Source: Candidatus Bathyarchaeota archaeon
Lineage (GTDB): Archaea; Thermoproteota; Bathyarchaeia; TCS64
Assembly (NCBI GenBank): GCA_030739585.1
Contig: JASLYX010000002.1
Coordinates: 186,001-250,000, forward strand
Reading direction: 5' to 3'
DNA length: 64,000 nt
Shown piece after piece: positions 17,966-60,280 of the stretch. Each line of letters begins with the position of its first letter. The first letter of the stretch is position 1. Made by a program: the position numbers and the translations under genes. A model generated the notes under the pieces. The model made no database searches, was not told the DNA's origin, and was given only the letters and a program-made list of their open reading frames with translations.

Positions 17966-18165
17966 TCAAGAACCCTCTTTTTTACTTACACATGCGTATA
18001 CGAGCCCGAACAGAAGCCTCTTAACAGATATTAATTACTTCCATTTTTTTCATATTCTATTTTGGATTGAAAAGTCTTTACAACAAAACGGAGAAACCAT
18101 CGTTGGGTCTCACAAGTCTTTTCAGAGTCAGGAAAAGAGTAAACACGTTGCATAAGGAGATTGAT

Positions 18166-20805: not shown

Positions 20806-20821
20806 CGGTGGCAGAAATCTC

Positions 20822-21838
20822 ATGATCAACGAATCCCTAAACCGATGTTTTGAACTCCCCTTCGATGAGCTCTACCCCCTGTTTGATGATGCATACCGAA
20901 TTTCGAGGGTACGGTTTTCAGATCAGATTTTCTTCTACGCCCCGGGGTTTATCCACTACGACACACCCTTCTATAGGGCGGTGAACAAATGGCGATTTCC
21001 AAGCGTTTCGGTGACCGGTACCGGTTGCCAGCTCCAGTGCGAGCACTGTAAGGGGAAGCTCCTAGAGACCATGATTCCGGCTACCACCCCTGAGATGCTT
21101 AGGGAGGTTTGCACCAGGATAATGGATAAGGGGGGGAAGGGTCTTCTTGTAAGCGGGGGGGCAACAAGCGATGGCGGGGTCCCCTTACAGAAATTCGTAC
21201 CGGCTATGGGATGGGCAAAAGAAGAGCTGGGTTTAGACATTGTCGTACATACCGGTTTGGTTGAGCCCGTTCTTGCCGAAGCCCTCGCAGATATTAACAT
21301 AGACGCCGTGATGCTTGACATCATTGGATCCGAGAAGACCATTAGTAGAATCTACCATATGGATCTAACCGTCGAGGCTTATGACCAATCTCTCTATATC
21401 CTCGAGGAACACGACATTCCGATAGTTCCCCACGTTGTTGTAGGGCTCCACTATGGGAGGCTGGAAGGTGAGAGGAGAGCCTTGGAGATTCTCTCCGGGC
21501 ACAATCTGGCCGCAGTTGTGGTCGTGGCCTTCATGCCGTTAGAGGGGACACCAATGGATGACATTACCCCGAGCTCCCCCGAAGAGATCACTAGGGTCGT
21601 TCTCGCCTCGAGGCTTGCCATGCCTGAGATCCCTATAATCCTAGGCTGCGCTAGGCCTAGAGGAGAACACAAGGCCCGTACCGATGTTCTTGCCATTAAA
21701 GCCGGGGTGAATGGTATAGCTTACCCCAGCGAAAAGGGCTACAACCACGCAAGAGAAAGGGGGCTAGGGATCCGATTCTCCGACGAATGCTGCTCCCTCC
21801 TTTTCAGGGACATAATGGCCTCCATCGGAGGGCATTGA
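20822..21838 (+). CDS. Radical SAM protein, lipoyl synthase LipS1/LipS2 type (second member)
   Basis: A 338-residue radical SAM protein with the cluster motif CQLQCEHC near residues 67-74 and a following GKLLETM. A conserved cysteine near the end of the barrel (LGCARPRGEHK) and a CC pair near the C-terminus (DECCSLLF) are further candidate cluster ligands. It starts 16 bases after the first radical SAM gene, and its stop lies just before the lipoate ligase start, so all are one transcript. In the LipS1/LipS2 system the two proteins add the C6 and C8 sulfurs in turn. Assignment to that pair rests on family appearance plus the operon. Confidence 0.72.
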   Translation: MINESLNRCFELPFDELYPLFDDAYRISRVRFSDQIFFYAPGFIHYDTPFYRAVNKWRFPSVSVTGTGCQLQCEHCKGKLLETMIPATTPEMLREVCTRIMDKGGKGLLVSGGATSDGGVPLQKFVPAMGWAKEELGLDIVVHTGLVEPVLAEALADINIDAVMLDIIGSEKTISRIYHMDLTVEAYDQSLYILEEHDIPIVPHVVVGLHYGRLEGERRALEILSGHNLAAVVVVAFMPLEGTPMDDITPSSPEEITRVVLASRLAMPEIPIILGCARPRGEHKARTDVLAIKAGVNGIAYPSEKGYNHARERGLGIRFSDECCSLLFRDIMASIGGH

Positions 21839-21840
21839 AC

Positions 21841-31998: not shown

Positions 31999-33663
31999 TC
32001 AGGAGATATATCCCAGTTTCCTAAGTCTCTCCTCTATGAGTGATTTCTCCTCTTTATCGAAGCTGTATGCATCCAAATTCTGATTCGTTATTTTCTTGCC
32101 TGCCGATCTCATGGAAAACTTTGAATCATCCGTGAAGATCTCATCTAGAACTCTTCCATCCATCATATCTTGCATAGGGATTCCAAAGGAGTGTAGCAGC
32201 GTTGGTGTAATATCAAGGATAGATGCCTTCTCTACTCTGAATCCTTGTTTCACTCCAGGACCGTGGGCAATGAAGATCCCGTCTCTAGTGTGGGTCCCCT
32301 TCCATCCCGTGAGAGGGGCACCCTTTACAAAGAGCCGTTCCTCACCAACTTTGGCATCAATCTCGCACCTTCCCCCGTCTATCATGAAAACGATTTCCGG
32401 TGCCTCGTCAAGATAGGAACCAGTATAGACGTCTCGGGAACTGTACACATCGACATTAACAAGTGCTCCGGTCCTAGGGTCCTTTAGCCCTCTGAGCTTT
32501 TTCTTTAGATCTGACACGAGCTCATCCCGCTCGTTCTCTTGGACACATCCCTCTAGCATTGTCCCTTTGGTGTTGAGATAGATCTGACCGAAATGGGGAG
32601 TGTGGACGGCGCTGAACGCCCTCGTCTTTTTCCAGTTGACTCTGCCCTCAAGCCTGGCATTTGAGAGATAGGTGTAGGTATACCTCTGGAGCCTCTCAAT
32701 GCCAACCACCTTGAAGAGTGCCCCAGCTACAGGCTTTAGAAGCTCTCTCCTACCGAGGAATCTATAGAGTCTCTCTGCGATTCGCCCCAGCTTAACTATA
32801 GTCCTCTCATTGATTTTTCTCTTCGCCTTTAGGAAGCCGTTCCTGCGGAGCCACTCGTTCACGAAAAAGGTCTTTTTAAGGGGCCCGAAGCCGTGATCTG
32901 AGACCACGAAAACTGTTGTCTCCTGCCCAACTGCCTCAAGGAGTTTCCCGAGAACCTTGTCCAGTTCCTCCCAGTAAGATTCCACAGTTTCCCGTTTATT
33001 CCACAGAAGGTGGTGGATCCTGTCGGGGCTAGTGAAAACAACCATGTTGAAGTCGCATGAGATGTGCTTCATCAGATATTCCGCGGCCCTGCCCCTTTTT
33101 TTTGTGACCTTGAGGGCGTCTTTATAGAAGCTCACCTCGTCGAAGTATTGCCAACTAGGTAGATCGATCTCGTAGTCGAGACCGGATTCTAGGACCCTCT
33201 GGAGCTCTGAGGGGTAGCTGAAGGTGCTCTCACTTGAGGGCGTCATCATTCCCGTTACCATGAATCCCTCAACCTCCTCGGGAGGATATGTCCCGGGGAT
33301 GTTAATCATTCCCGTTTTTATATCGTAGCTGTTAAGGACCCTCCAGATGGGGTGGTGGTTTGAGAAACAGAAGCCGTTGGGCTCCACCCCATAGCCTGCC
33401 CGTTTCAGGAGGTCAAAGAATCCAAGCCGCCCTGGATTCATCCCTGTCATCATACTCACCCAGGCGGGGATAGTCACAGGGGGTAATGTGGAGTCGAGGT
33501 TTCCCCAGGTCCCCTCTTCCATGAGCCTCGCCAGATTCGGCAGTCTCCCATCTTCCGTGAGGGGACGGATTATGTCGAATGTGCCACCATCAAGCCCTAG
33601 GACCAAAACTTTGCGGCGTGGGAACTCGGCCTTCGACATGCTAAATTTGTGTCCCCATATCAA
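31999..33663 (-). CDS. Alkaline-phosphatase-superfamily phosphodiesterase/nucleotide pyrophosphatase-like protein (copy 1)
   Basis: A 554-residue protein of the type I phosphodiesterase/nucleotide pyrophosphatase group. The nucleophile region is GLDGGTFDIIRPL (Thr near residue 27), followed by IPAWVSMMTGMNPGRLG. Metal-binding motifs VVSDHGFGP near 255 and GTHTRDGIFIAHGPG near 455 complete the two-metal site. No signal peptide is evident, so it is probably cytoplasmic. Relatives hydrolyse phosphodiesters or transfer phospho-groups; archaeal members often sit near glycan genes. It shares its architecture with the gene at 54639-56147. It is transcribed alone, upstream of the coiled-coil/transporter pair. 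Confidence 0.82.
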   Translation of the reverse strand: MIWGHKFSMSKAEFPRRKVLVLGLDGGTFDIIRPLTEDGRLPNLARLMEEGTWGNLDSTLPPVTIPAWVSMMTGMNPGRLGFFDLLKRAGYGVEPNGFCFSNHHPIWRVLNSYDIKTGMINIPGTYPPEEVEGFMVTGMMTPSSESTFSYPSELQRVLESGLDYEIDLPSWQYFDEVSFYKDALKVTKKRGRAAEYLMKHISCDFNMVVFTSPDRIHHLLWNKRETVESYWEELDKVLGKLLEAVGQETTVFVVSDHGFGPLKKTFFVNEWLRRNGFLKAKRKINERTIVKLGRIAERLYRFLGRRELLKPVAGALFKVVGIERLQRYTYTYLSNARLEGRVNWKKTRAFSAVHTPHFGQIYLNTKGTMLEGCVQENERDELVSDLKKKLRGLKDPRTGALVNVDVYSSRDVYTGSYLDEAPEIVFMIDGGRCEIDAKVGEERLFVKGAPLTGWKGTHTRDGIFIAHGPGVKQGFRVEKASILDITPTLLHSFGIPMQDMMDGRVLDEIFTDDSKFSMRSAGKKITNQNLDAYSFDKEEKSLIEERLRKLGYIS

Positions 33664-46002: not shown

Positions 46003-47625
46003 ATGTCTTTCGAGTTGCGCGACCGAGACCTAATGGGGCGTATCGGGAGGCTTAAGACCAGGAGGGGAATTGTAGAGACTCCTGCATTTATGCCGGTTGT
46101 AAACCCCGTGAAGCAAATAATACCTCCTCGGAGGATGCTTGAGAAGTTCGGCTGTGGGATCATCATCACCAACTCCTATATCATCATGAAAAACTTCGGT
46201 TGCGAGCCGGGACTCGACGTTCACCGTCTCATCGAGTACGACGGCATCGTCACTACTGACTCCGGGGCCTATCAGCTCCTCGTCTACGGGGAGGTAGAGA
46301 CCAATCCCAAGGAGATCATCAGGTTCCAGCAGGGAATTGGTTCTGACATCGCAGTAATACTGGATATTCCCACAGGCTGGGGAGAACCTAGGGAGCGGGT
46401 TGAGTACACAGTTCAAGAAACCCTCCGCAGGGCCCGAGAGGCGTTATCCCTAATTAAGGGAGATGATACCCTCTGGGTGGGACCTGTACAGGGAGGTGCC
46501 CACCTCGACCTTGTGGAGCGTTCCGCTCGAGAGATCGGGGCAATGCCCTTCCAGGTCCACGCCCTGGGGAGCCCCACTGAGGTAATGGAGAACTATCAGT
46601 TCTCAGTGCTTGTGGACATGATCATGGCGGCAAAGCTTAACCTCCCTGTCGACAGGCCCTTTCACCTCTTCGGGGCCGGCCATCCCATGATGTTTAGCCT
46701 CGCCGTTGCTCTGGGTTGCGATCTATTCGATTCTGCAGCCTACGCTCTCTACGCCAAAGCGGGGCGCTACTTGACCCCTTTAGGTACATTAAAGCTTAAG
46801 GACCTAAACTATCTTCCGTGCTGCTGCCCCGTTTGCAGCGGGACCAGCTCTCAAACGCTCAAGAGGATGATCAAGGGTGAGCGGGAGAGGCTCCTCTCAG
46901 AGCACAACCTGTGGGTCACCATGGCGGAGATGAGGAGGGTGAAGCAAAACATAGTGGAAGGGACTCTTTGGGATCTCGTGGAGGCAAGGAGTCGCGCTCA
47001 TCCTGCCATGGCCTCCGCCCTAAAGAGGCTACACATCTATAGGAAGAAGATAGAGGAGCGGAGCCCCGGGTACAAGGGACGGGGCGCATTTTATTTCAGC
47101 TACGATAGTACTGCCCGGCCTGATGTGACCCGTCACGTATGGAGGCTGAGAAGGAGCCATAGCCCCTCTGAGACCGAGAAGACCCTCCTCCTAGCCAGCG
47201 CACCCAGCTGGAGACCCTACTCTAAGTCCAATGGGTTCCAGGCGCTTAAGAAAGACCTCGATAATAACCTCGGTGAGGCCATTGAGAGGCTCCAGATCTC
47301 TTTCTTCGCAGCCCCCTACGGGGTCGTCCCGCTGGAACTCGCCGAGACTTATCCCCTCAGCCAGAGCGAGATAACAGAGCCATTTGACAGGGAGACCATT
47401 GATTTCACAGCGGAGATCGCTGTCTCTTACGTCTTAGAGAGCGGATTCCCTGAGGTTCTGCTTCTCGTGGGGGAGGGGGACCTAGACTTTACCGTTCAGA
47501 AAAGGTTCACGGAGCTCGGTGAGGATTCAGAGAGAGGCATCCATATACTCTTGGCTGATGGGCTATGGAGCAATGAGACCCGGGGGAGGGTCGTCGCCGC
47601 CTTGAAGAGTGTCCTCGGTGTCTAA
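46003..47625 (+). CDS. tgtA: Archaeosine tRNA-guanine transglycosylase, catalytic subunit
   Basis: A 540-residue protein that exchanges guanine-15 of tRNA for preQ0. The TIM-barrel core is residues about 1-330, with TDSGAYQLLVYG (nucleophile region), DIPTGWG and VQGGAHLDL. The zinc site reads CCCPVCSG with a later His. The remaining 200 residues correspond to the C1/DUF5591-like part. The C2 and PUA domains that normally end the protein are missing; they are encoded separately at 43521-43991. The start ATG at 46003 aligns with relatives. Confidence 0.88.
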   Translation: MSFELRDRDLMGRIGRLKTRRGIVETPAFMPVVNPVKQIIPPRRMLEKFGCGIIITNSYIIMKNFGCEPGLDVHRLIEYDGIVTTDSGAYQLLVYGEVETNPKEIIRFQQGIGSDIAVILDIPTGWGEPRERVEYTVQETLRRAREALSLIKGDDTLWVGPVQGGAHLDLVERSAREIGAMPFQVHALGSPTEVMENYQFSVLVDMIMAAKLNLPVDRPFHLFGAGHPMMFSLAVALGCDLFDSAAYALYAKAGRYLTPLGTLKLKDLNYLPCCCPVCSGTSSQTLKRMIKGERERLLSEHNLWVTMAEMRRVKQNIVEGTLWDLVEARSRAHPAMASALKRLHIYRKKIEERSPGYKGRGAFYFSYDSTARPDVTRHVWRLRRSHSPSETEKTLLLASAPSWRPYSKSNGFQALKKDLDNNLGEAIERLQISFFAAPYGVVPLELAETYPLSQSEITEPFDRETIDFTAEIAVSYVLESGFPEVLLLVGEGDLDFTVQKRFTELGEDSERGIHILLADGLWSNETRGRVVAALKSVLGV

Positions 47626-48944
47626 ATGCATTTAGCATCCGCGAGCTTAAGGACCTCATCAATAACGGCTACGCCCTCATCTATCTCCTCTTCAGTGACT
47701 ATAAGGGGCGGGCTGAAGATCATGGTATTGAGTATGGTGAAAAAATAGACTCCTCTCTTGAGGGCCTCACCGGCCATCTTTCCGAGCATAGTGGTCTCAA
47801 AGCGCTGCTTTCTAGTGGCGAAGGGCTCCTTGGTCTCTCTGTTCTTGACGGGCTCGATGCCCCAGAACAATCCTTTTCCCCTGACCTCCCCCACAGACGG
47901 ATGAGAATCTTGGAGCTCACCGAGGCGCTTCCCGAGGTACCTCCCCATCTTCTTGGTTCGTGAGACTAGGTCGAGGCGCTGGTACTCTTCGACGGCGGCG
48001 AGCCCGGCGGCACATCCTATGGGATGGTTAGCGTAGGTCTGCCCGTGACAAAAGAGGTTGTCATCCTCGAAATAGTCTGCTATAGGTTTTCGTACCATTG
48101 TAGCGCTGAAGGGGACATAAGCCGATGTGAGCCCCTTTGCCATGGTGATTATGTCTGGAACGACGTCCCAGTGGTTAACGCAGAACCACTCCCCGGTCCT
48201 GCCAAATCCTGTCATAACCTCGTCGGCGACCAGCAGCGTGCCTGTCTCGGTGCAGATCTCCCGGAGTCTGGGCATGTAGTCGTCAGGGGGCACCAAGATG
48301 CCGTTGCTCCCAACTATTGGCTCTATAAAGAGAGCGGCGACGTTACCTGCCCCCTCCATCTCGATTATATCTCCAATATATTCAGCGCACTGGACCCCGC
48401 ATCCCGGGTGCTCCAGACCAAAGGGGCATCGGTAGCAGTAAACATCGGGAGCGTGGACCGTCCCGGGGATGACTGGGGCGTAGAGGCGCCGGGGGTCTCC
48501 AGTGAGACTGATTGCCCCGCTTGTAGCGCCATGGTAGCTCCTAAAGCGGGCAATGAGCTTTGGAGCTCTCGTATAGAAGCGGGCGATCTTCATAGCCGCC
48601 TCGTTTGCCTCAGCGCCTCCTAGAGAGAAGTAGCTCTTGCAGATATCCCCTGGGGCCACCTCGGCTAGCTTTCGTGCCAGCTTTGCAGCCGCTGGGGTTG
48701 TGAATCCCGGGGCGATGTATGATAACTTTGCCCCCTGGGCCGCTATCGCCTTCTTGACGGCCTTGTTGCTGTGTCCTAGGTTGGAGCAGACGAGTTGGCT
48801 TGAGAAATCGAGATAGGTCATCCCAGTCGAGTCTGTGAATCGTGAGCCCTCAGCTTTCACAATGACCTTTGGGTTCCATGTTTTCTGGTACTTCCAGGTG
48901 CCAAAAAGGTACTCCCGGGTCACCTTCGAGTAGTTTTCACACAT
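47622..48944 (-). CDS. Class III (omega) aminotransferase
   Basis: A 440-residue PLP enzyme. The PLP lysine lies in TMAKGLTSAYVPFSA (near residue 255), preceded by LLVADEVMTGFGRTG; YHGATSGAISLTG near 138 binds the cofactor phosphate. Members act on 4-aminobutyrate, beta-alanine, taurine or similar omega-amines. An insert with several cysteines (CYRCPFGLEHPGCGVQCAEY, near 165-185) is unusual but shared by some taurine- and beta-alanine-type members. It overlaps the end of tgtA by four bases on the opposite strand. Its neighbour comDE would make sulfoacetaldehyde or phosphonoacetaldehyde, a possible amino acceptor. Confidence 0.85.
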   Translation of the reverse strand: MCENYSKVTREYLFGTWKYQKTWNPKVIVKAEGSRFTDSTGMTYLDFSSQLVCSNLGHSNKAVKKAIAAQGAKLSYIAPGFTTPAAAKLARKLAEVAPGDICKSYFSLGGAEANEAAMKIARFYTRAPKLIARFRSYHGATSGAISLTGDPRRLYAPVIPGTVHAPDVYCYRCPFGLEHPGCGVQCAEYIGDIIEMEGAGNVAALFIEPIVGSNGILVPPDDYMPRLREICTETGTLLVADEVMTGFGRTGEWFCVNHWDVVPDIITMAKGLTSAYVPFSATMVRKPIADYFEDDNLFCHGQTYANHPIGCAAGLAAVEEYQRLDLVSRTKKMGRYLGKRLGELQDSHPSVGEVRGKGLFWGIEPVKNRETKEPFATRKQRFETTMLGKMAGEALKRGVYFFTILNTMIFSPPLIVTEEEIDEGVAVIDEVLKLADAKCI

Positions 48945-49387
48945 AATAGTGAACTCCTAGATATGGATAGACGATTCTTTGGATAAGCGTTGGCACCAAG
49001 ATGATTCTTAAGCATGAGACATGTGAAGTTTTCCCCACCGCACGCGAAGGCCCCAATCACGTACGCCACCACCGTCATTTCTTAACCCTAACATGAGGAT
49101 GATTTTTCTTGAGGCTCACTCATACGGCATTTTAGGGAGTGACAAAATCTGAGGCGAACATTTCCCGTCCCATGATCTTTACGACTTAGTCGTTTCTGAT
49201 CGTCTTCTTGCTAACCCCTTGAACTTATTACTAGTTTCAGCTCATTAGGTGGGGAATAGCGTTCAGCTTGTTTTCCGATATGAGACGATCTTATATTTCT
49301 GTATTCAAGAACAACTTCCTGAGAATCAGTCCTCCCCTTTCACAACATAGAGGCCCAATCTGGAAAGAAAGACCAGAAAGGTGAATC
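48945..49387. other. Intergenic stretch, no gene seen
   Basis: About 440 bases between the aminotransferase and the regulator, both on the minus strand. It presumably contains the aminotransferase promoter. No coherent frame or repeat was recognised. Confidence 0.45.
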
Positions 49388-49894
49388 TCAGATCTTCTCC
49401 ACTAGCTTGACTATAGCATCCAACATCAGCCCTTCATCAAACCTGAACGATGTGATGGGTATGTTCACGACTCTCTCCAGAGTGGTCGCTGCTATCGGGC
49501 CACATATTATTCCCTTTACTCCCTCCTTCTCGGCCCTTACCCCCTGGATGATTGACTCTTCAATAGTGGTAGCCGGAAACTCCTTAATCTTAACGGACCC
49601 CCCATCGATTTCGATGGTTCTCCCAATTGTATCAAGGGCGGTCCTCGTCGTGATGATGCCCACCACGTTCTCTTCGTTGACCCCCTCCAGGCGCCTGACG
49701 CCTTGGATTATCTGCCTCAAAGTGGACCTCCGAAAATCTTTATTTTCATCTGAAACGATCTTGTACAGAGTGCTAGCCGGGATCTCCGCTTCCTCAGAAA
49801 AATCTCTGATGCTCATACCTAGGGCGTTCAGGGTCTTCCTTAATAGCTCGCCGAAACCGTCGGTGACACAGTTCATTAATAGTTCGGACCACAT
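49388..49894 (-). CDS. HTH regulator with PrpR-like sensor domain, divergent from comDE
   Basis: A 168-residue protein. Residues about 15-70 form a Cro/C1-type helix-turn-helix (FGELLRKTLNALGMSIRDFSEEAEIPASTLYKIV). The rest is an alpha/beta domain (IDGGSVKIKEFPATTIEESIIQGVRAEKEGVKGIICGPIAATTLERVVNIPITSF) that resembles PrpR-type ligand-sensing domains. Methanogens carry similar regulators beside comDE. It diverges from comD across 139 bases that contain three copies of an AAGGATAA-type motif, so autoregulation together with comDE is likely. Confidence 0.72.
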   Translation of the reverse strand: MWSELLMNCVTDGFGELLRKTLNALGMSIRDFSEEAEIPASTLYKIVSDENKDFRRSTLRQIIQGVRRLEGVNEENVVGIITTRTALDTIGRTIEIDGGSVKIKEFPATTIEESIIQGVRAEKEGVKGIICGPIAATTLERVVNIPITSFRFDEGLMLDAIVKLVEKI

Positions 49895-49902
49895 AGTCTA
49901 CT

Positions 49903-49964
49903 AAAAGGATAAATTAGTATAATAAGTTTCCTTATCCTATTCATTTTCTATTTTAAAAGGATAA
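49903..49964. promoter_or_regulatory. Repeated AAAAGGATAA operator candidate
   Basis: AAAAGGATAA occurs at 49903-49912 and again at 49955-49964, exactly 52 bases apart, with an inverted TTATCCT at 49932-49938 between them. The three sites lie between the regulator and comD and overlap likely TATA elements, as expected for a repressor binding site. Confidence 0.5.
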
Positions 49965-50033
49965 TATATATTAAGGAGTTATGAGGTCTTATATTATTGG
50001 ATAAACGCCAGTATCTCCTATTATGGGGGTTAG

Positions 50034-50612
50034 ATGAGAGTCATGGAAATCAACAACGTAGTGTACATGGTAGCCAAAGAGGAACATCAATACAAACTAA
50101 CCGACACTCAGAACCTTCCAATAGCACATCATGTGGTGGGAACACAAATAATCTCATTTCTAAAAGATAATGGATTCGATTTTGGAGTCACCTTTCCCTC
50201 GGGCAAGCTCAATAACCTCCTTGAGATGATTGAGGACGACGAAGAGATTTTCACAGTTCCTGTCACCAGAGAGGAGGAGGGCGTTGGGGTTTGTGCTGGT
50301 GCCTACCTGGCAGGGAAGAAGCCGTTCATGCTCATCCAGAGCTCGGGCCTGGGTAATTCATTTAACGCCATCGCCTCGCTCCTTAAGACCTATAGGATAC
50401 CCGTCCTCATCCTCGCAGAGCATAGGGGAATATATAACGAGACGATCTCTGCCCAAGTTCCTCTTGGAGAGGCTCTCCCTGGGATGCTGGATGCTATGAA
50501 TATACCATTCATCATGGTCCGCTCTCAGTTGGACTCTCTGGAGGAGTTCTCAGCCGACAACTTCAGAAATGGGGAACCCCACGTCGTGCTCCTATCCCCT
50601 GAGTTGTTCTAA
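50034..50612 (+). CDS. comD: Sulfopyruvate (or phosphonopyruvate) decarboxylase, alpha subunit
   Basis: A 192-residue protein corresponding to the pyrimidine-binding domain of a thiamine diphosphate decarboxylase. The glutamate that activates the cofactor lies in VTREEEGVGVCAGAYLAGKKP, and SSGLGNSFNAIASL follows. ComD and ComE together decarboxylate sulfopyruvate to sulfoacetaldehyde in coenzyme M synthesis; close relatives act on phosphonopyruvate. comABC are absent from the window, so which substrate is used is open. The subunits are encoded in order with one base between stop and start. Confidence 0.82.
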   Translation: MRVMEINNVVYMVAKEEHQYKLTDTQNLPIAHHVVGTQIISFLKDNGFDFGVTFPSGKLNNLLEMIEDDEEIFTVPVTREEEGVGVCAGAYLAGKKPFMLIQSSGLGNSFNAIASLLKTYRIPVLILAEHRGIYNETISAQVPLGEALPGMLDAMNIPFIMVRSQLDSLEEFSADNFRNGEPHVVLLSPELF

Positions 50613-50613
50613 G

Positions 50614-51171
50614 ATGATGCGGTGTCAGGCACTGAGGGTCATCATGGATCTTGTCGAGGACGAGTTGGTAGTCTCAAACCTGGGGGATCCTAGCAAGGAG
50701 CTATATCATACGAGAGACCGGCCAAAGAATTTCTACATGCTAGGCTCTATGGGACTCGCCTCATCCATTTCCCTCGGATTGGCCTTATCTCAGGACAGAA
50801 GGGTCGTTTGTCTCGATGGTGACGGCTCCATATTGATGAATATGGGCTCCCTTTCCACTATAGCAAACATAAAACCCAACAACCTGATCCTGATAGCCCT
50901 CGACAACGGAGCGTATGGAACTACAGGAAATCAAAACAGCTTCGCCGCGGGTTTAACGGACTTGGGAGAGGTAGCTAAAGCCTGTGGCTTTAATCGATGC
51001 ATTACTGCAGATAATGATACAGAGTTGACCAGGGCCTTCAAAGAATCTCTTGGGAGAGCCGAATTATGTTTGATTCACGCATCCATAGACCGGGACGACA
51101 CAAAGATGGATGAGATACCCCTTGACCCGGAATTGATCAAGAGACGTTTCATGAGTTCCATTTCTTCATGA
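50614..51171 (+). CDS. comE: Sulfopyruvate (or phosphonopyruvate) decarboxylase, beta subunit
   Basis: About 185 residues from ATG 50614, one base after the comD stop; an open frame from 50569 overlaps comD and is unlikely. The thiamine diphosphate/Mg motif reads GDGSILMNMGSLSTIANIKPNNLILIALDN (GDG at the start, N about 29 residues on). LGSMGLASSISLGLAL precedes it. Together with ComD it makes the complete active site. A second in-frame ATG at 50617 is an equally possible start. Confidence 0.82.
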   Translation: MMRCQALRVIMDLVEDELVVSNLGDPSKELYHTRDRPKNFYMLGSMGLASSISLGLALSQDRRVVCLDGDGSILMNMGSLSTIANIKPNNLILIALDNGAYGTTGNQNSFAAGLTDLGEVAKACGFNRCITADNDTELTRAFKESLGRAELCLIHASIDRDDTKMDEIPLDPELIKRRFMSSISS

Positions 51172-51278
51172 AAAGGTCTGTAATAGGATCATTTATTGAA
51201 AACCTTTCGAAGATGCTCTTCTGTCATATCCCAAGAGATATATCCAATTCTGTAGTTGTAGACTAGAGAACAGATAAA

Positions 51279-52106
51279 ATGGGATATGAAGTCATCATCC
51301 CCGCCAGAAATGAGGAAAAATATATCGAAAAGACACTTCTCGCGATAACCAAGCAAAGCATTAAGCCTGATCGAATCATTGTCGTAAATGATGGGTCCAG
51401 GGACCGGACATCAGAGATTTCCAATAAATACGCGGACGTAGTTGTTGACCTCCCTGATAGAGGATTTAGCGCGTTGGGGACCACCGAGATCCCTAAGGTT
51501 TTCAATAAAGGCCTAGAACGGGTGTCACCCAAATCAGAATATGTACTAATATGTGGGGGCGACGCTGTTATCCCCGAGAAATTCTTTGAGACCATCCGAA
51601 ACCATATGATCAAAGACCCTGCACTGGTGATAGCAAGCGGCAGGCTTGAAAGTAACCCAAGCTACGAAGGCGCCCCGCCAAGAGGCACGCGGGTGGTCAA
51701 GGCTGATTTCTGGATGAATGCAAACGGTCTTCGATACCCTGAGATTCTCGGTTGGGAGAGCTGGTTGGTTTTTAAAGCTCTCCAAATGGGAAAATCAGTC
51801 AAGCGTTTACCTAATCTGATAACCGAGGCCCAGAGATCCCCCTCATCAGGTAAAATAAAGACCGCTTGGAGTAAAGGTAAGGGTATGCGCCTACTAGGAT
51901 ATGATTGGAAATATACTCTAGCCCGTGCTGGGACATTTTTTATTGAGAAACCAAGTGCAGGAATTAAAATGATAGCCGGATACATATCTACAACAAACGA
52001 AAGGAGATCTGATGTCGCCGAATGGGTAGGTGACCATCAGAGGAGGAGGTTTTGGCGACGAGTCTATTTTCAAATTAAGTTATTTACTGAAAAACGAGGT
52101 CAATAG
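51279..52106 (+). CDS. Family 2 glycosyltransferase
   Basis: A 275-residue GT-A fold enzyme. The N-terminal motif IPARNEEKYIEKTL and IIVVNDGSRDRTSEI bind the nucleotide-sugar, and CGGDAVIPEKF near residue 90 provides the metal-binding acidic site. No membrane helix is present, so it should work at the inner face on a lipid or protein acceptor. It starts 107 bases after comE on the same strand. Downstream are a convergent PIG-L deacetylase and an ATP-grasp enzyme, which together suggest assembly of a modified sugar. Confidence 0.85.
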   Translation: MGYEVIIPARNEEKYIEKTLLAITKQSIKPDRIIVVNDGSRDRTSEISNKYADVVVDLPDRGFSALGTTEIPKVFNKGLERVSPKSEYVLICGGDAVIPEKFFETIRNHMIKDPALVIASGRLESNPSYEGAPPRGTRVVKADFWMNANGLRYPEILGWESWLVFKALQMGKSVKRLPNLITEAQRSPSSGKIKTAWSKGKGMRLLGYDWKYTLARAGTFFIEKPSAGIKMIAGYISTTNERRSDVAEWVGDHQRRRFWRRVYFQIKLFTEKRGQ

Positions 52107-52150
52107 CGATCAAAATAATATTGTAGTTTACGTATATTTTGACTGGGGAT

Positions 52151-52774
52151 TCAGCTCAAGACCAGCTTGATTACCTCAAAGGATTCTGCATATTTCTCCC
52201 CAATATGAAGGCCTTTCGCCCTAAGTAATCCATGTAGATATTCTCTATCAAAATATAGGCGGGTCTTTTGAGTGTCATAACATTTGAGGGCTTTAAGTTT
52301 TTTTTCGACGTGGGCCCCGTTAAGGGATATAAAACAATTTTCGTGAAATATGATGTTATTCCAAGGAAGTTCATATCCAAAGATGGTGCTATGCTTGAAA
52401 GCCCTCATCACTTCGTTCGTTACTGTTTGATGATCCTGATGTAGGTCCTGCGTGGAGGGCGTTAGTACTAAGTCGACTTGATGCTCCTTGTTATAGTCGA
52501 AAAGATACTGAAGGATCTCCTGACGTTTTTCAGGGAAACGTCTCCTGGGAAAATCTAAAATGAAATAGTCTTCAACACCTAATATTCCGAGACATTCTGC
52601 GCATTCTTCTTTTAGCTCTTTACGGGGGGCTGAGAGGGCGATATAACTTACGTTGGATCCCTCTTCGACGAATCGTCTTATAGTTCCTCCGGCTGCTAGT
52701 TCACCGTCATCTGTGTGAGGGCTTATGACCAAGATATTTTCGAAAAAATTGTTTCTCATAGGACCTCTCTCCAT
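52151..52774 (-). CDS. PIG-L family N-deacetylase
   Basis: A 207-residue zinc-dependent deacetylase. The metal-binding motif appears as SPHTDDGELAAGG near residues 15-27, with DLHQDHQTV near 110 supplying the second histidine group. PIG-L enzymes remove acetyl groups from N-acetylglucosamine-type sugars, as in mycothiol, bacillithiol and GPI pathways. Its start lies inside the end of the ATP-grasp gene (19-base overlap), so the two are co-expressed. Confidence 0.83.
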   Translation of the reverse strand: MERGPMRNNFFENILVISPHTDDGELAAGGTIRRFVEEGSNVSYIALSAPRKELKEECAECLGILGVEDYFILDFPRRRFPEKRQEILQYLFDYNKEHQVDLVLTPSTQDLHQDHQTVTNEVMRAFKHSTIFGYELPWNNIIFHENCFISLNGAHVEKKLKALKCYDTQKTRLYFDREYLHGLLRAKGLHIGEKYAESFEVIKLVLS

Positions 52775-53838
52775 TCTTTATGGAATACCTGATCCATGTA
52801 ACGTATCATTCTTCTGCCATAATCTATTCGTTCTTGGTATGCGATAACATCCTCTTCCGAGAGTTCTCCGAGGGCAAGTTTAATCGCCAGGTATGGGGCG
52901 ATGAGATTCTGTTGGTATATGAATGTGCTCACCCTGGGATTTATCTCCACTAACCTTCCCGCAATAAACTGTACGTTAACACAATAACTTAGGGGGATAG
53001 AGTTTAACACATGTTCTGTCTGCTCAACTAGAAAATCATCCCGCACTAACGCCCCCTCGGCAATAACACCCCACCGTGCTTTCTCCACGGTCTTAATAGT
53101 GGTCAATAAGGCTCTTCCGTCTAATGCAAGAGTATCAGCGGTTTTCTCTTTCCCCTCTAGATATTCCATCAACAAGAAATCCGGGAAATCAGTGTCCTCA
53201 ACATCCTTGAAAATCTCAATGAACTCATCGAAACTCATGTACTTACTCGTTGGCTTCTCATCCATCAGTTGACTTTTCCGGTCAGCCTTTGGGTCGATAA
53301 TCCTCACCCCTCTGCTCCCTTTCCCAAAATGGGGTTTAAAAACAATAGGGGACTCTGGATATCCAAGCCTCTCAGAAGCGGCAACGAAGTCGTCCAAATT
53401 CGATGCAGAAGAATACTCAGGCAGATCTACTTTTCCCGATTGTTTAACGGTCTCATACATGAGATATTTGTTGCTCGAAGCTTGGATCGCCTCTGGAGAT
53501 GAAACAATAACCTTTGTCTCCATCTCTTCAAATTTTTTTCTAGCCTTTGCTAAAGCAAGAACTTCGTTGCTGGATTCTGGAAAGATAAGCGCGGGGTTTT
53601 CTTTTTCGACGATGTCTATCATTGCGGGGATGAACTCGTTTGAGGTCCCGCTGGGAACCCTGTAAAAACCATCGCATAGAAATCTCCCAATGGCTTCGTT
53701 ATTTATATCAGTCCCAATTATCGTGACCTCTCTTTCCCCGTTCCCTTTGAGACGCTTGATCAGGGTGGAGGCGCCAGGGCATCCGCATGCTGTTAAAATG
53801 ATCTTAATCGGGGGGGGCTGTAGGTTCGACATTAACAC
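52756..53838 (-). CDS. ATP-grasp ligase (carbamoyl-phosphate-synthase-like)
   Basis: A 360-residue enzyme. The N-terminal pre-ATP-grasp domain starts KIILTACGCPGASTLIKRLKG and includes GTDINNEAIG. The ATP-grasp core runs from about 120 to 320, with VFKPHFGKGSRGVRII as the nucleotide loop, LLMEYLEGKE and the Mg-binding LVEINPRVSTF. Such enzymes join a carboxylate to an amine or other nucleophile. Paired with PIG-L it could add an amino acid to a freed amino sugar, a cysteine- or aspartate-ligase-like step; that is inference. Confidence 0.82.
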   Translation of the reverse strand: MLMSNLQPPPIKIILTACGCPGASTLIKRLKGNGEREVTIIGTDINNEAIGRFLCDGFYRVPSGTSNEFIPAMIDIVEKENPALIFPESSNEVLALAKARKKFEEMETKVIVSSPEAIQASSNKYLMYETVKQSGKVDLPEYSSASNLDDFVAASERLGYPESPIVFKPHFGKGSRGVRIIDPKADRKSQLMDEKPTSKYMSFDEFIEIFKDVEDTDFPDFLLMEYLEGKEKTADTLALDGRALLTTIKTVEKARWGVIAEGALVRDDFLVEQTEHVLNSIPLSYCVNVQFIAGRLVEINPRVSTFIYQQNLIAPYLAIKLALGELSEEDVIAYQERIDYGRRMIRYMDQVFHKEWREVL

Positions 53839-54163
53839 AATCCTTCTGATAACGTGTTCAGAATAATGCTTTTAAAATATATATAACCTCTATCAGATTC
53901 TAGAAGACTCTCAAAGGACAGATCCATAAAAGCTGTAAAATAAAATAAGTTGGTTTCTGTATTAAGCGAATTGGGGAAGGTGACAGCCCAATTTACCATA
54001 GATACTTTGCAATAAATCTCAAAGCCTTTCTTATAATAAGAAACAGGTATTGTTATTTTAACTCCAATCGATAAAATTTAATCATAATTGTATGTTTTGA
54101 CAATACCTAACAAATCTTTCATGAATTGGTATATACTGCTTTTGATCGGTATAATTGAAAAAG
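53839..54163. other. AT-rich gene-free stretch
   Basis: About 325 bases, AT-rich, upstream of the ATP-grasp gene. It contains that gene's promoter region and no other recognisable feature. Confidence 0.45.
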
Positions 54164-54349
54164 TCAATAATGCATTTCAATAAGATCCTGCTCCTCTAAT
54201 GAATCAAAAAATTTTCCAGACCAGATCGATTTAATATAGTTGATTACCTCCACGGGTTGGAGATCAGAATACAGTGACATTTCAAAGAGAAACTGTGCTG
54301 CTAAGTGCTATTTCTGCAGATATGTTTGGGCATTTATTACTCTCTTCAT
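54164..54349 (-). pseudogene. Small ORF interrupted by one in-frame TAG
   Basis: From ATG 54349 the minus strand reads 61 codons of protein-like sequence (MKRVINAQTYLQK, stop TAG, HLAAQFLFEMSLYSDLQP...) to TGA 54164-54166. Only one codon (TAG near 54311) breaks the frame, and the second part is a good amphipathic helix pattern. It could be a recent pseudogene. Reading through the amber codon is possible in principle, but no supporting element is seen. Confidence 0.35.
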
Positions 54350-54638
54350 TTTAAATAGACCGTTTGGCTATTTTATAGCCTGCTGGTTTAATGTATTCCC
54401 CTTCTTGAATCCCTTTTTTCAAAAGTGTCACACTATGATGATTAGGGTTAAACTTCGTTAAACTACCAAATCTTGTCCCTCGTTTACTTTTTTGCTTCTT
54501 TTCAGAGATCTTGGAAAAATTGTATCCCCAGGTCATATTTTTTTCATACTCAGTTATAGCGAAAAATGGTTTCGCGATATATTTTCCTCATTTCTATCAG
54601 GGATGATGACTTTGTATATTCTTTTTAACCTCTGATAT
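54350..54638. other. AT-rich stretch with a doubtful ORF
   Basis: A minus-strand frame at 54351-54536 (61 codons, lysine-rich: MTWGYNFSKISEKKQK...) directly precedes the interrupted ORF and may belong to the same unknown locus. No family was recognised. Confidence 0.3.
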
Positions 54639-56147
54639 TCACCTTATTATCTCTGAAAGGACCCTTCCATCAAGGTCCCCTGGGATTTCGACGGAGAGTA
54701 ACTTTAGTATCGTTGGCATAACGTCTAGAATATTTGCTCCATCGATCTTTTTTCCTTTAACAATGTCTGGACCGGAAGCGATGAAAATTCCGTCCATTCT
54801 ATGTGATCCCTTTATATCGTTTCCTGAGTTAACGCCAAACACTTTCTCCGCTGTCAAAGAATTGGATACCTTATACTTGCCTTTAAGGGATAACACAATA
54901 TCCGGGGCATCATCTACATATGGGCCGGAATATAGCTCCTCTCTTTTATAGACCTTCTCGATGATCTCTTCGTTCGTTTCAGGGTTTTTTAATTTCTGCA
55001 GTTTTGAAATAATTTCTTCTCGTAGAATTTCATATTCCCACGGTTCTACGATCCCCAGAGGTTCTCTTCCCCTCATATTTATCATGATATTTCTTAACCA
55101 ATTCGACGCTACTGCAGCTTTTGTATTCTCCCAGTCTATCGCTACAGTGTCTGTGGGTATTTTCGAATACATCTTTGTGACTAATGACGGCATCCATTTT
55201 TTTATTAAATTGTATCCGGGCATTCTCTTAATAAATCTAAGCGATCTCTTTGTCATCCCGAATTTACTGAACGTTTCACTAATCCCGCTCTCTTTCTTCC
55301 GTAAGTTCCTGATTTTATAGCTAGTTGTAGATTCATAATCGGTGGTTTCAGTGGATAGTAATCCGATTTCCTCAAGCCATTTATTTATATAAAAAGTGTT
55401 TTCGGACGATCCAAATCCATGGTCTGACATTATTATAATGTTAGGATCATCCTCGACCTTATCTAGGACTTCCCCCACGATTTTGTCCACTTCATAATAA
55501 TAGTCGTCTATCTTATCCTTATCTCCCCATAGTTTATGCTGAATAGTATCTGATCCAACGATTGTGAGCATAAAAAACTCCCAATTAAAAATATTCATAA
55601 GAGATAACGCAATCTCTTTTCGCTTAATCTCTAAATCTAATAATTCCTGATAAATTTTCTCTGAACGTACATATCCCCCGATATCCGTGTACACCTTATA
55701 TCCCATTTCGTCCAGTTCCTCTTTCAGAATTTCAGGATAGACATAATTCACGCCCTGCGGTGTAAGTAACCCGGAGATGAGACATCCTCTGACCACTTTT
55801 GGGGGGTAAGTACCTGTGACGTTTATCACGACACTTGTCTTTCCCCCTTTGCCGAGAATATCATAGACCGTCGGGCTTTTCAGGTCTTTAGAAGTCGACA
55901 GTGCGCCGATATATTTACCTGGGACTTTTTTCAAGAAATCATAGACGCCGTGTTTACCCGGGTTCATCCCCGTCAAGAATGATGGCCATGCTGGAATTGA
56001 CGAAGGTGGGATTGTAGATTGGAGGACACCATGTACCCCCCCCGCTATCAACTTGGAGATGTGTGGTAGACGCCCCTCTGAGATCAATGGTCTAATGATG
56101 TCGAATGTGGCACCATCAATACCAATTACTACACATCTATTAGCCAA
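54639..56147 (-). CDS. Alkaline-phosphatase-superfamily phosphodiesterase-like protein (copy 2)
   Basis: A 502-residue paralogue of the protein at 31999-33663. The nucleophile segment IGIDGATFDIIRPL and IPAWPSFLTGMNPGKHG correspond closely. The metal motifs IMSDHGFGSSE near 245 and GSHRMDGIFIASGPD near 435 are intact. It differs by AT-rich codon use and lies in the island with glycosyltransferase, PIG-L and ATP-grasp genes. No signal peptide is visible. Likely substrates are phosphodiester- or phosphonate-linked metabolites; the closeness to comDE makes a phosphonate-related role worth considering, but that is inference. Confidence 0.8.
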   Translation of the reverse strand: MANRCVVIGIDGATFDIIRPLISEGRLPHISKLIAGGVHGVLQSTIPPSSIPAWPSFLTGMNPGKHGVYDFLKKVPGKYIGALSTSKDLKSPTVYDILGKGGKTSVVINVTGTYPPKVVRGCLISGLLTPQGVNYVYPEILKEELDEMGYKVYTDIGGYVRSEKIYQELLDLEIKRKEIALSLMNIFNWEFFMLTIVGSDTIQHKLWGDKDKIDDYYYEVDKIVGEVLDKVEDDPNIIIMSDHGFGSSENTFYINKWLEEIGLLSTETTDYESTTSYKIRNLRKKESGISETFSKFGMTKRSLRFIKRMPGYNLIKKWMPSLVTKMYSKIPTDTVAIDWENTKAAVASNWLRNIMINMRGREPLGIVEPWEYEILREEIISKLQKLKNPETNEEIIEKVYKREELYSGPYVDDAPDIVLSLKGKYKVSNSLTAEKVFGVNSGNDIKGSHRMDGIFIASGPDIVKGKKIDGANILDVMPTILKLLSVEIPGDLDGRVLSEIIR

Positions 56148-56839: not shown

Positions 56840-57250
56840 TTATCTTGTTTTTCTCCATTTCCTCATAACAAAAATACTTTTCTCAATTTTAGCTTTAGCC
56901 ATGTCCATATCTCCATCATAATAGCTCTGAAGACTCTCGCTCTGGAGAATAGTTGCTTCGTTTCTGTCTCTGATATAAGGATTTAGCATGGGTTTCCTTG
57001 TCATCTCCCCTTTTCTGAACTCAAAGTACCCCATTAACACAGCGAGAGGGATGTACGTTAGAAAGAATAACGCTACGAACGTGCTCAACTTGTTTAGATA
57101 CTTGTCAAGGAATGGGACGTATTGGATGAGAAGTCTGTGCTGGAGCACAACGAAATTCATTATACTCATAGAATACACGAGGTAGCCCCCATGCCCTGCT
57201 TTGAAATATATCCACATGTCCCTAACTTTCCTACCAAAATTCCTCATCAT
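56840..57250 (-). CDS. Small membrane protein, unknown function
   Basis: About 136 residues from the Met at 57250 (or 57265 for a 141-residue form). Two hydrophobic helices are visible (about residues 25-45 and 57-80), separated by a short loop with LLIQYVPFLDKYLNKL. A basic, hydrophilic C-terminal region follows, with a helix DGDMDMAKAKIEKSIFVMRKW. No family was recognised. It lies alone between the AT-rich region and the PDCD5-like gene. Confidence 0.55.
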   Translation of the reverse strand: MMRNFGRKVRDMWIYFKAGHGGYLVYSMSIMNFVVLQHRLLIQYVPFLDKYLNKLSTFVALFFLTYIPLAVLMGYFEFRKGEMTRKPMLNPYIRDRNEATILQSESLQSYYDGDMDMAKAKIEKSIFVMRKWRKTR

Positions 57251-57613
57251 TACAGGTCGTTCCAAAAGATACTATTCCTATCAGTATTTTGCTCCTTCCC
57301 TCTTAACGCAAGAATCATTGTCGTCTATGTTAGGGGTACCTAGAAATCAATTAAGGATTATGTGTTCATCTTAGGGATAAATATGAAATTCTTGACTTCC
57401 TAGCAGTCATCCCCTGCCTAAAGCATTAAGGGCGATGACAATATCCTTCTGGGCGGCTATCCAGAGAGGGCTTGGTGTTCCAAAAGAAAAATGCAATGGT
57501 TCGAGTGTGCATTCACTAATATCTTCGATGATCGTCTTCGGCAGAGGAAACTTTATCCTTGAGCCTTTAAACTTATAGGTTGAGACTAAGGAAAAGTCGT
57601 TTGAGGCTGCTGA

Positions 57614-58161: not shown

Positions 58162-60006
58162 TTAACGTAGTTCTTCGAGGTCTGAATTAACGTAGCCGAT
58201 ACCAAGTCCTTCTAGGGTCTCGGGAAGGGGTATCCCTGTTGCTGGGTCCCAACCCATCAACGTGTAGTAATTCGTTAGCATGTCGTTCCAGTGGGGGAGA
58301 ATACTGATTCCGGAGGTGAGCCCATCGACCGGGGTGGACCCATATCGGACCGATGGGCGGTCATACTCTGCACCTATCCCGGCCCTAAGGTTGTATGCTC
58401 TCATTAGGTTGATGGCCCTAAGGCCGACCCGCCTTCCCTCCTCCCCTGTAAAGTCCCAGCCTGTGGCAGAAGAGATTGCAGCTGCTAGGTTCTTTGCATT
58501 CATCCCGGTGTTAAAGCGGCAAGCGCCAGTAGAGTCGTCTAGCTGCATTAACCCCTTAGTTTCCGCAACCTCTGTAGAGACCACCTTCCAGTTTCCAGGT
58601 CCCTGGGCGTCTGGGCCCATCATGCTCATATGAGTCTCAATGGTGCTTGTGCTGCTCACACAGGTGTCGAACATTTCGGCCCATCGGGTTCTATGATCGT
58701 GGCCCCTTGGGATATTCCCTTTCATAGTGTAAATCGCGGCGTCAGCTGCAAGACCACCGATCTTCTCTGAGGCCCTCTTTATTCCCTCAGCGAGGAGTAA
58801 TCCGAAGCCCTCGCGCTTGGAAATCATCTCGAGAAGCTCTACAACTGCCCAGACATCTCCCCAGGCTATCTTAAATCCCCCGGATTGTTCCTCCGTGATC
58901 CAACCCTTCTCAAAACACTCCATAAGCCAGCCGGTTATCCAGCCCGCCTCGTTATTCTCAAGGCCGAGGCGGTCGGTGAGACCGCTGAGCATAAAGGAGG
59001 CCTCGACATCGTCGACCCCAATTGCTGGGCCCCAGGCTGCAAGCTGCTCGTACTCGGGCTCCTCAACTATCCCTGCGTAAGGACCAGTCTTCACCTCCAT
59101 CCAGGCGCAGTGGAGAAGGCGACATCCCCAACAAGGTTCCCTCCCTACTTGATATGTATCCCTCAGATACATTTCCCCGTAGGCATCGATCTTCTCGTCT
59201 GAGATATCCCAGAGGTTGGTGGTATAATTTTTTACGGGAAGAGTGCTGTTTTCCGCCTTTTGATTTGTCTCGACGCCTCCGATGGTTCCTTTAAAGTACT
59301 CGACCTCCTCGTACATTTCTTGGGCGACTTTTTTAAGGGTCCTAGGATCGTGGACGTTGATCTTTCTACTACCGGGAAAAGCAATTATGGCCTTGAGCTT
59401 TTTACATCCCAATACAGCACCCGTACCGTTATGGGAGGCGCTGTGTCCCTTGTCCACAAATACTCCCGCCCAGCGAATTAGATTCTCCCCGGCCGGACCA
59501 ATTGAAAGGACAGCGGCGTCCCGCCCTCTAGCATTGTGGATCTCCTTAAGGGCGTTGCTTACCTCATATGTATCGAGTCCCATGATCTCCGAAGCATCCC
59601 TTAACTCGGCCGTTCCATCTTTAAGCATAAGATACGTCCATTTGTCGGATGCGCCCTGGATCACCAAACCATCAAAGCCAGAGAACTTCATATATGCTCC
59701 AAAAAGGCCGTTAGCTTGGACCGACGTAGCACCGCCAGTCAAAGCGCCTTTGGTGACTAGTGAGATTGTACCAGTGCCCCCTACACTGGTTCCCCCAAGG
59801 GGGCCGCTTGCGATGACCATTCGATTCTCAGGATCAGACCAGTTAGCATTCAGGGGGACCTCGTCGTAGAGCACCCTAGCCCCAGCGCCTGTCCCACCGA
59901 GGTATGATCTGTAGGCTTCCTCATCCCAGATCCAGTCCTCAAGGGTTCCTTTGGTAAGGTCCACGCGCAAGAACTTTCCTGCGTATCCCTTTATCTCAGT
60001 TTGCAT
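58162..60006 (-). CDS. Aldehyde:ferredoxin oxidoreductase (tungstopterin family)
   Basis: About 614 residues from Met 60006 (the open frame begins at 60018). It oxidises aldehydes to acids with ferredoxin, using a tungsten-bis-pterin and one iron-sulfur cluster. The N-terminus GYAGKFLRVDLTKG is typical. The cluster cysteines are visible as CWGCRLLHC near residue 290 with a fourth in DSTGACRFN near 500. The family's central GHSASHNGTGAVLG and GNIPRGHDHR segments are present. Specificity within the AOR group (AOR, FOR, GOR, WOR) cannot be decided. No maturation genes are in the window. Confidence 0.92.
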   Translation of the reverse strand: MQTEIKGYAGKFLRVDLTKGTLEDWIWDEEAYRSYLGGTGAGARVLYDEVPLNANWSDPENRMVIASGPLGGTSVGGTGTISLVTKGALTGGATSVQANGLFGAYMKFSGFDGLVIQGASDKWTYLMLKDGTAELRDASEIMGLDTYEVSNALKEIHNARGRDAAVLSIGPAGENLIRWAGVFVDKGHSASHNGTGAVLGCKKLKAIIAFPGSRKINVHDPRTLKKVAQEMYEEVEYFKGTIGGVETNQKAENSTLPVKNYTTNLWDISDEKIDAYGEMYLRDTYQVGREPCWGCRLLHCAWMEVKTGPYAGIVEEPEYEQLAAWGPAIGVDDVEASFMLSGLTDRLGLENNEAGWITGWLMECFEKGWITEEQSGGFKIAWGDVWAVVELLEMISKREGFGLLLAEGIKRASEKIGGLAADAAIYTMKGNIPRGHDHRTRWAEMFDTCVSSTSTIETHMSMMGPDAQGPGNWKVVSTEVAETKGLMQLDDSTGACRFNTGMNAKNLAAAISSATGWDFTGEEGRRVGLRAINLMRAYNLRAGIGAEYDRPSVRYGSTPVDGLTSGISILPHWNDMLTNYYTLMGWDPATGIPLPETLEGLGIGYVNSDLEELR

Positions 60007-60280
60007 CGAATCGATCATAAAAGCTTCATTCTGGTACTAATAATTTCTCATCTTTGTAAGAGATTCGAGCGGGTGACAATTATGGCATTGTATATATTAT
60101 CCAGGAGACTTTACTTCTCCATTCGTAACTCAAGCGGTATTCCCCGAAGGGGCCTCTTCTGTGAGAATCATCATAATCAGCTTCCATCGCTTAGCCTGGG
60201 AGTTCAGATTAATTGTCTAAACTCTACTATATAGGAGCGAGACCAGGCCAGAGGCATTCGACATTTAGATTTTTTTACGG

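Follow-up and report, generated by a model that had tools for sequence, protein, structure and literature searches.

This study analysed a 64,000-nucleotide window (the whole stretch, positions 186,001 to 250,000 of contig JASLYX010000002.1) from the draft genome of a Candidatus Bathyarchaeota archaeon, hereafter G000 (1.69 Mb, 95% complete). The window carries a six-gene block that encodes a helix-turn-helix (HTH) regulator, the ComD and ComE subunits of a predicted sulfopyruvate decarboxylase, a family 2 glycosyltransferase (GT2), a PIG-L deacetylase, and an ATP-grasp ligase. The block is well supported as a shared unit of G000 and G001 (Bathyarchaeota QDN_3, draft, 96% complete), a second genome of the same genus. 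We consider it possible, though somewhat short of probable, that the block is a cassette responding to sulfonates, which produces sulfoacetaldehyde and attaches a derivative of it to an amino sugar, in an archaeon in which methyl-coenzyme M reductase (MCR) was not found. The features of the block are as follows.

49388-49894, minus strand: regulator with a Cro/C1-type HTH and a small alpha/beta domain, divergent from comD; 86% identical in G001
49895-50033, no strand: divergent regulator-comD intergenic region, a candidate operator or promoter elements
50034-50612, plus strand: ComD, predicted sulfopyruvate decarboxylase alpha subunit (TIGR03845); 81% identical in G001
50614-51171, plus strand: ComE, predicted sulfopyruvate decarboxylase beta subunit (TIGR03846), start moved from 50569; 78% identical in G001
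51279-52106, plus strand: GT2-type glycosyltransferase, same strand as comDE; 61% identical in G001
52151-52759, minus strand: PIG-L/LmbE-type N-deacetylase with HTDD and HQDH motifs; 74% identical in G001
52756-53838, minus strand: ATP-grasp ligase with a PylC-like N domain, its stop overlapping the PIG-L start (ATGA); 73% identical in G001

The first-pass annotation had linked comDE to the glycan-type genes by position only. Comparison with G001 (L036, 'Candidatus Bathyarchaeota archaeon isolate QDN_3', the nearest named relative with this locus) revealed the same six genes in identical order and orientations. GT2 lies on the comDE strand in both genomes, starting 107 bp after comE in the window. 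All the enzyme genes that the annotation had named, including a class III aminotransferase and an alkaline phosphatase (AP)-superfamily protein outside the block, proved to be intact open reading frames (ORFs) of the families given. ComE matches at E 3.2e-57 or better occurred in six of 121 relatives (G000, G001, G054, G071, G079, and G120); the last four loci had different neighbours, and G000 and G001 were the only members of their family with a match. The flanks of the block differ, in that only G001 has YjbQ together with a GSAM-like gene at one end and xanthine-dehydrogenase-type (XDH-like) genes at the other.

Base composition also sets the block apart. The GC content of the six genes was 0.42-0.50 in the window, versus 0.53-0.56 for the tRNA-guanine transglycosylase (TGT), aminotransferase, PDCD5-like, and aldehyde:ferredoxin oxidoreductase (AOR) genes, and it was 0.50-0.56 in G001, versus 0.60-0.65 for the AOR, YjbQ, GSAM-like, and XDH-like genes. 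The low GC begins at the regulator (0.497) and falls to 0.42-0.46 in the GT2, PIG-L, and ATP-grasp genes; the AP-superfamily gene and a gene at 56840-57265 are GC-poor as well. The AT-rich DNA noted earlier therefore holds from the regulator onward and does not include the aminotransferase, the GC of which (0.556) equals that of the adjoining TGT gene. The GSAM-like aminotransferase and YjbQ were rejected as block parts because of their backbone GC in G001 (0.636 and 0.596); the only window match of the former was the class III aminotransferase (28%), and the latter had none.

The window ComDE is well supported as an enzyme of the sulfopyruvate decarboxylase type by sequence family, with the activity predicted. 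ComD passed TIGR03845 (185.7 bits; cut-off, 147.95) and ComE passed TIGR03846 (233.7 bits; cut-off, 221.5), whereas both fell below the cut-off of TIGR03297, a model of the one-chain form of phosphonopyruvate decarboxylase (68.3 and 157.0 versus 312.5 bits). The comE start most likely lies at 50614, one base past the comD stop, and ComD has an N-terminal extension of approximately 28 residues that is long in G001 too. Diagnostic residues were compared across 34 loci: both subunits could be recovered from 27 of these and ComE alone from six, and one locus gave neither. The window motifs were REEEGVG, EHRG, and TTGNQ. Loci of the coenzyme M type, which adjoin comA (L037 and L040, over cut-off, with comB-like genes beside them below cut-off), comC (L038, over cut-off), or cysteate synthase (L033, L043, L046, L047, L048, L050, L054, and L056, over cut-off), carried REE(E/D)G, (H/W/L)RG, and mostly STGNQ. 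Eight pairs linked to phosphoenolpyruvate (PEP) mutase (PepM; L058, L059, and L223-L228) mostly carried RE(D/E)EA, (S/G)WRG(Y/F), and STGGQ, with L059 and L227 deviating in part; the PEP-mutase gene beside these pairs, judged by its best model, exceeded the cut-off of 319.55 in one case and scored 290-318 bits in seven.

A midpoint-rooted tree of 28 rows, the window included (L223-L228 and RhiEF were left out, and L059 and L060 form long branches), agreed with the residues. The window and G001 formed a pair (100/100), which the fused ComDE of G054, G120, and a Methanomicrobiales metagenome-assembled genome joined (96/96) in a clade of five rows, and the PepM-linked rows L058 and L059 fell outside this clade. 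Cysteate synthase adjoins two of the three fused ComDE genes. A Pro-Cys motif near the N-terminus of ComD, which is Pro-Ser in the window and G001, is present in the rows adjoining comA, comC, or cysteate synthase and also in the PepM-linked L058 and L059; it is Pro-Asp in two Chloroflexi rows (L049 and L053) and in L223-L228. The cysteine is therefore not family-defining.

These comparisons bear on the phosphonate alternative of the first-pass annotation, in which ComDE would be a phosphonopyruvate decarboxylase that supplies 2-aminoethylphosphonate to a glycan. The best PDB relatives of ComD and ComE are the two subunits of 9iz3, which is RhiEF, a heterodimeric phosphonopyruvate decarboxylase (PMC12141560), and split decarboxylases of the same superfamily adjoin PEP-mutase-like genes in L058, L059, and six genomes of the phylum. 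The sole PEP-mutase match in G000, however, was below cut-off and is PanB, over its own cut-off (280.9 versus 207.55 bits), so the phosphonate reading falls; this search, the diagnostic residues, and the tree position together led us to reject the pathway, which we regard as highly improbable.

Additional ComDE relatives were observed. In the six phylum genomes L223-L228 (family f29), the two-subunit phosphonopyruvate-decarboxylase-like genes adjoin nucleotidyltransferase-like as well as PEP-mutase-like genes. In L032 (G071), a predicted ComDE of the same class (ComE 46% and ComD 42% identical) adjoins a zinc-type dehydrogenase gene, another gene resembling it, and an apparent CoA-transferase-like gene. 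Bacterial relatives with varied neighbours occur in Chloroflexi (L049 and L053) and Alphaproteobacteria (L042, L044, L051, and L052), and a phage search with ComE returned two partial matches only.

We further analysed the coenzyme M pathway. MCR was not found in G000 or G001, and the same test was positive in G327, G359, and G428, the three regulator-carrying genomes tested. Profile searches of ten genomes, G000 included, detected ComA in none (ComB and ComC were not searched for), MMP16/ComF over cut-off in none, and cysteate synthase over cut-off only in G054, with a best score of 86.9 versus 324.9 bits in G000. The MMP16 model matched only the ferredoxin part in G000 and G001, with no COG1900 part; the latter was matched below cut-off in G002, G004, G006, G071, and G120. 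The model does detect MMP16 within the phylum (L221, 499.6 bits; L222, 525.1 bits). The SsuA family had no match in G000-G003 at 1e-15. In drafts such as G000 and G001, a single gene might be missed by chance; the two genomes gave the same set of absences. Given these results, ordinary coenzyme M synthesis is unlikely. The earlier statement that comABC are missing holds for comA, and the reading of comDE as serving sulfonate rather than coenzyme M metabolism is supported. Neither of the outcomes that the annotation had named as refuting its proposal was obtained: comDE adjoins the glycan genes in one related genome, and comA was not detected.

The regulator had been labelled PrpR-like. Its Pfam matches were confined to HTH models (the best being PF13443, at 23.0 bits against a cut-off of 22), PrpR_N was not among them at E 0.01, and the label is not supported; fold comparison yielded the HTH and weak LacI/Rex-like matches (TM score approximately 0.3). 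Homologues occurred in 28 of 398 genomes of the phylum Thermoproteota, to which Bathyarchaeia belong, the window's own counted. Transporter genes of the ATP-binding cassette (ABC) family and NitT/TauT (sulfonate) type were present up to 1.5 kb to either side of the regulator at 25 of the 27 other loci (23 of 24 after removal of three query-source loci), whereas the same queries matched one of 29 aminotransferase loci and none of 24 loci of other thiamine diphosphate (ThDP) enzymes. The two loci lacking a match were L208, which spans 2.1 kb only, and L214, where the wider region (L221) has both the ABC set and MMP16 at a distance of 2-6 kb from the regulator. The binding proteins beside the regulator in L218 and L220 scored best with SsuA_fam (136.9 and 147.9 bits), as did the one beside the L033 cysteate synthase (103.3 bits), all below the cut-off of 163.5. 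The mcrB gene adjoined the homologue in 20 of the 27 loci (L192-L210 and L212; 19 of 26 without its query source), 19 of which also had the ABC genes, the other being the shorter stretch L208. In G359, the homologue lies 2 kb from an MMP16 gene. The mcrB-adjoining HTH family may regulate the uptake of coenzyme M or of sulfonates.

The closest homologue of the window regulator (60%), in G253, sits with its transporter genes inside a glycan cluster of UDP-sugar dehydrogenases, an epimerase, DUF354, a MraY-like gene, and an ATP-grasp gene. The regulator gaps of G001 and G253 align in part with the window gap, which contains an inverted repeat, AAGGATAA / TTTCCTTA, at 49905-49934. The repeat occurred once in the window and in 0 of 100 shuffles, the pattern having been chosen after being seen. 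A third copy, AAAGGATAA, lies at 49956-49964; AAAGGATAA on its own is not unusual (3 copies versus an expected 0.99). These repeats are a candidate operator and could also be archaeal promoter elements.

Among the glycan-type genes, PIG-L most likely starts at 52759, and its start overlaps the ATP-grasp stop by four bases, as it does by coordinates in G001. The best NCBIfam match of PIG-L was BshB1, at 53.6 bits and under the cut-off of 182.5. A structure model of the ATP-grasp protein (predicted local distance difference test score, 84) was closest in a fold search to 2pn1, followed by RizA, an amino-acid ligase, and the best 50 matches included PylC; by fold, we read it as a putative carboxyl-to-amine ligase. 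Its homologues are rare (five of 256 genomes of the class at 1e-15), and viral contigs contained no relative of it or of the regulator. A second ATP-grasp gene of G001 (61%) adjoins a second PIG-L gene (33%) in a glycan cluster that also contains a MraY-type transferase, DUF354, a polysaccharide deacetylase-like gene, and a third ATP-grasp gene. Three more distant genomes (G113, G154, and G171) have an ATP-grasp relative, and in G154 and G171 PIG-L lies one gene away from it.

The proximity of the regulator family to mcr loci also bears on a distinctly unlikely explanation, in which the block would make coenzyme M or a similar thiol for a non-methanogenic role from sulfoacetaldehyde and sulfide, with no dedicated ComF and possibly in a glycosylated, bacillithiol-like form. 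An uncatalysed reaction of sulfide with sulfoacetaldehyde is reported (cited in PMC12068725). The adjacency to mcrB and, in G359, to MMP16 would suit such a thiol. So would the set of functions in the block, bacillithiol logic being a glycosyltransferase, a PIG-L deacetylase, and an amine ligase, together with the BshB1 match of PIG-L. However, that match is far below cut-off, and neither G000 nor G001 yielded MCR, ComA, cysteate synthase over cut-off, or the COG1900 domain of MMP16.

In the sulfonate cassette that we favour, ComDE would decarboxylate sulfopyruvate to sulfoacetaldehyde, and the divergent regulator would most likely sense a sulfonate and control comDE. Probably in this order, PIG-L would deacetylate an N-acetylhexosamine to yield a free amine and an amide would be formed by the ATP-grasp ligase, such that GT2 and the ATP-grasp/PIG-L pair build an amino-sugar conjugate carrying the sulfonate of sulfoacetaldehyde in oxidised, reduced, or aminated form. 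Sulfoacetaldehyde could enter by oxidation to sulfoacetate, by amination to taurine, or by reduction. An AOR gene lies near the block in both genomes and might serve the oxidation, yet it has backbone GC; the neighbouring aminotransferase might serve the amination. The product is what we infer from these parts, and the block suggests an undescribed sulfur-bearing sugar product.

Several results weigh against this proposal. The searches identified no source of sulfopyruvate, neither ComA nor cysteate synthase over cut-off being found, and the block contains no enzyme that converts sulfoacetaldehyde to a ligase partner. The Pro-Ser of ComD could mean another substrate, and many biotin carboxylases and carbamoyl-phosphate synthases ranked high in the ATP-grasp fold search. 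The 107-bp gap between comE and GT2 does not show co-transcription. No independent co-occurrence of comDE with PIG-L and ATP-grasp was found; the block is known from two genomes of one genus only and may reflect a single acquisition. In G113, no PIG-L lay within the 17 kb examined around the ATP-grasp relative, and in G253 the stretch examined contained no PIG-L and an ATP-grasp gene only 23% like that of the window.

The strongest rival is accordingly chance adjacency inherited once, that is, two unrelated modules (regulator-comDE and a GT2 plus ATP-grasp/PIG-L glycan fragment) in a variable low-GC locus, co-inherited after one side-by-side acquisition or insertion. G000 and G001 share the whole locus, so the shared order counts as one event and not as repeated independent evidence. 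PIG-L and ATP-grasp genes also accompany each other at loci that lack comDE (G154, G171, and the second G001 cluster), and the gap beside the block contains a fragment like another glycan-cluster gene. Nevertheless, the block is intact where the flanks differ between G000 and G001, both genomes have GT2 after comDE and on its strand, and G253 offers another case of this regulator family lying, with sulfonate-type transporter genes, within a glycan cluster. We consider the two-module explanation rather unlikely.

The class III aminotransferase had been counted as part of the island. It adjoins the TGT gene, and so do its orthologues in G001 (92%), G002 (92%), G003 (79%), and G005 (76%); G002, G003, and G005 yielded no comE match, and no block gene lay around the aminotransferase in the 19 kb of G003 or the 4.8 kb of G005 examined. 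The G002 contig begins at the base matching L031:11684, inside the gene that follows the regulator in G001, and so ends just before the expected block site; the absence of the block there is consequently uncertain. DNA of G002, a member of the same genus, bridges the G001 contigs C48 and C34 (93% identity), and the adjacency deduced from it places the aminotransferase approximately 10.5 kb from the regulator in G001, versus 0.44 kb in the window. As a gene linked to TGT and present in relatives at loci lacking the block, it was rejected as an island part and is an older backbone neighbour of the block.

This result weakens the taurine route of the first-pass annotation, in which ComDE would form sulfoacetaldehyde, the aminotransferase would convert it to taurine, and taurine would be placed onto a sugar. 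The best PDB match of the aminotransferase was 6jix (2.1e-86), the taurine:2-oxoglutarate aminotransferase of Bifidobacterium kashiwanohense. It topped the 104 PDB sequences with E 1e-40 or better in a comparison of the whole sequence and not of substrate residues. One of the 29 aminotransferase loci (L159, G120) had a NitT/TauT-type binding protein nearby (25% identity). However, the best NCBIfam model scored 448.8, below the cut-off of 472, class III aminotransferases vary in substrate, and the gene is not tied to comDE across relatives, although it lies close to the regulator here. A taurine step through this predicted activity may be possible, linkage no longer argues for it, and we regard the route as quite improbable.

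Five known systems resemble parts of the block. Like the ComDE of methanogen coenzyme M synthesis, the window subunits pass TIGR03845 and TIGR03846, have the same motifs, and join fused ComDE in the tree; unlike it, they have GT2, PIG-L, and ATP-grasp partners and the Pro-Ser motif, in a genome where the other genes sought were not found. On two Leisingera plasmids, comDE lies with tripartite ATP-independent periplasmic (TRAP) transporter, hisD-annotated dehydrogenase, and hydroxy-acid oxidase genes, which looks like catabolism of 2,3-dihydroxypropane-1-sulfonate or sulfolactate; this is likewise a ComDE outside methanogens and coenzyme M synthesis, but the transporter, dehydrogenase, and oxidase genes are not in the window block. 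RhiEF is also a two-subunit ThDP enzyme and the best solved relative of both subunits, but no PepM was found here and the window is apart from the PepM-linked pairs in a tree lacking RhiEF.

Bacillithiol and mycothiol synthesis use BshA/B/C and MshA/B/C, and PIG-L with a ligase is known from such thiol pathways. The block likewise combines a glycosyltransferase and a PIG-L deacetylase with a ligase that would act on the freed amine, but has GT2 and ATP-grasp in place of BshC or MshC. The fifth system is 6jix, discussed above.

The occurrence of comDE outside methanogens is already known in bacteria. In the literature searched (mostly best-ranked results), we found no combination of comDE with GT2, PIG-L, and ATP-grasp, and the best-ranked results held no description of a regulator family spanning mcr loci and this block and, for taurine, glycans, polysaccharides, and archaea, no sulfonate-bearing archaeal glycan. 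The best-ranked results on sulfopyruvate or coenzyme M with Bathyarchaeia contained nothing on this subject. If the proposal is true, comDE gains a biosynthetic role outside coenzyme M, and organosulfonates become tied to archaeal sugar chemistry in uncultured archaea. It would also name a regulator family beside sulfonate-type importers and mcr, through which one could directly test how MCR-bearing Thermoproteota control their supply of coenzyme M or sulfonate. A bolder version, which we consider unlikely, would have an undescribed class of natural product, a ComDE-derived sulfonated amino-sugar conjugate (a small thiol-like glycoside or an envelope decoration) in archaea without methanogenesis. 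Its switch would be a regulator family that, in MCR-bearing Thermoproteota, responds to the supply of coenzyme M or sulfonate and controls sulfonate uptake beside mcr. In that case, the G253 regulator would serve by import the same end that G000 and G001 serve by synthesis.

The remaining features around the block are as follows.

47622-48944, minus strand: class III aminotransferase, a backbone neighbour that stays with the TGT gene
53982-54149, minus strand: short ATP-grasp-like fragment, perhaps a decayed gene, resembling the third ATP-grasp gene in the glycan cluster of G001 (34% over 56 residues, E 8e-6)
54639-56147, minus strand: type I phosphodiesterase/AP-superfamily protein, with an 82% relative approximately 8 kb from the block in G001
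58162-60018, minus strand: AOR, 88% identical in G001, 4.3 kb from the block here and 2.7 kb in G001, backbone GC

The AP-superfamily protein, which had been placed in the island, is a neighbour and at most a candidate member of the block; it had no PDB sequence relative at 1e-6. A paralogue lies at 31999-33663 of the window (33%, tblastn with the G001 copy). Elsewhere in the window, a family-4 glycosidase-like protein at 18067-19396 appears split over the overlapping ORFs 18067-18834 and 18782-19396, possibly by a frameshift or an assembly error. Two radical-SAM-type ORFs followed by a lipoate-ligase-like ORF at 19708-23445 may form an archaeal lipoate synthesis cluster.

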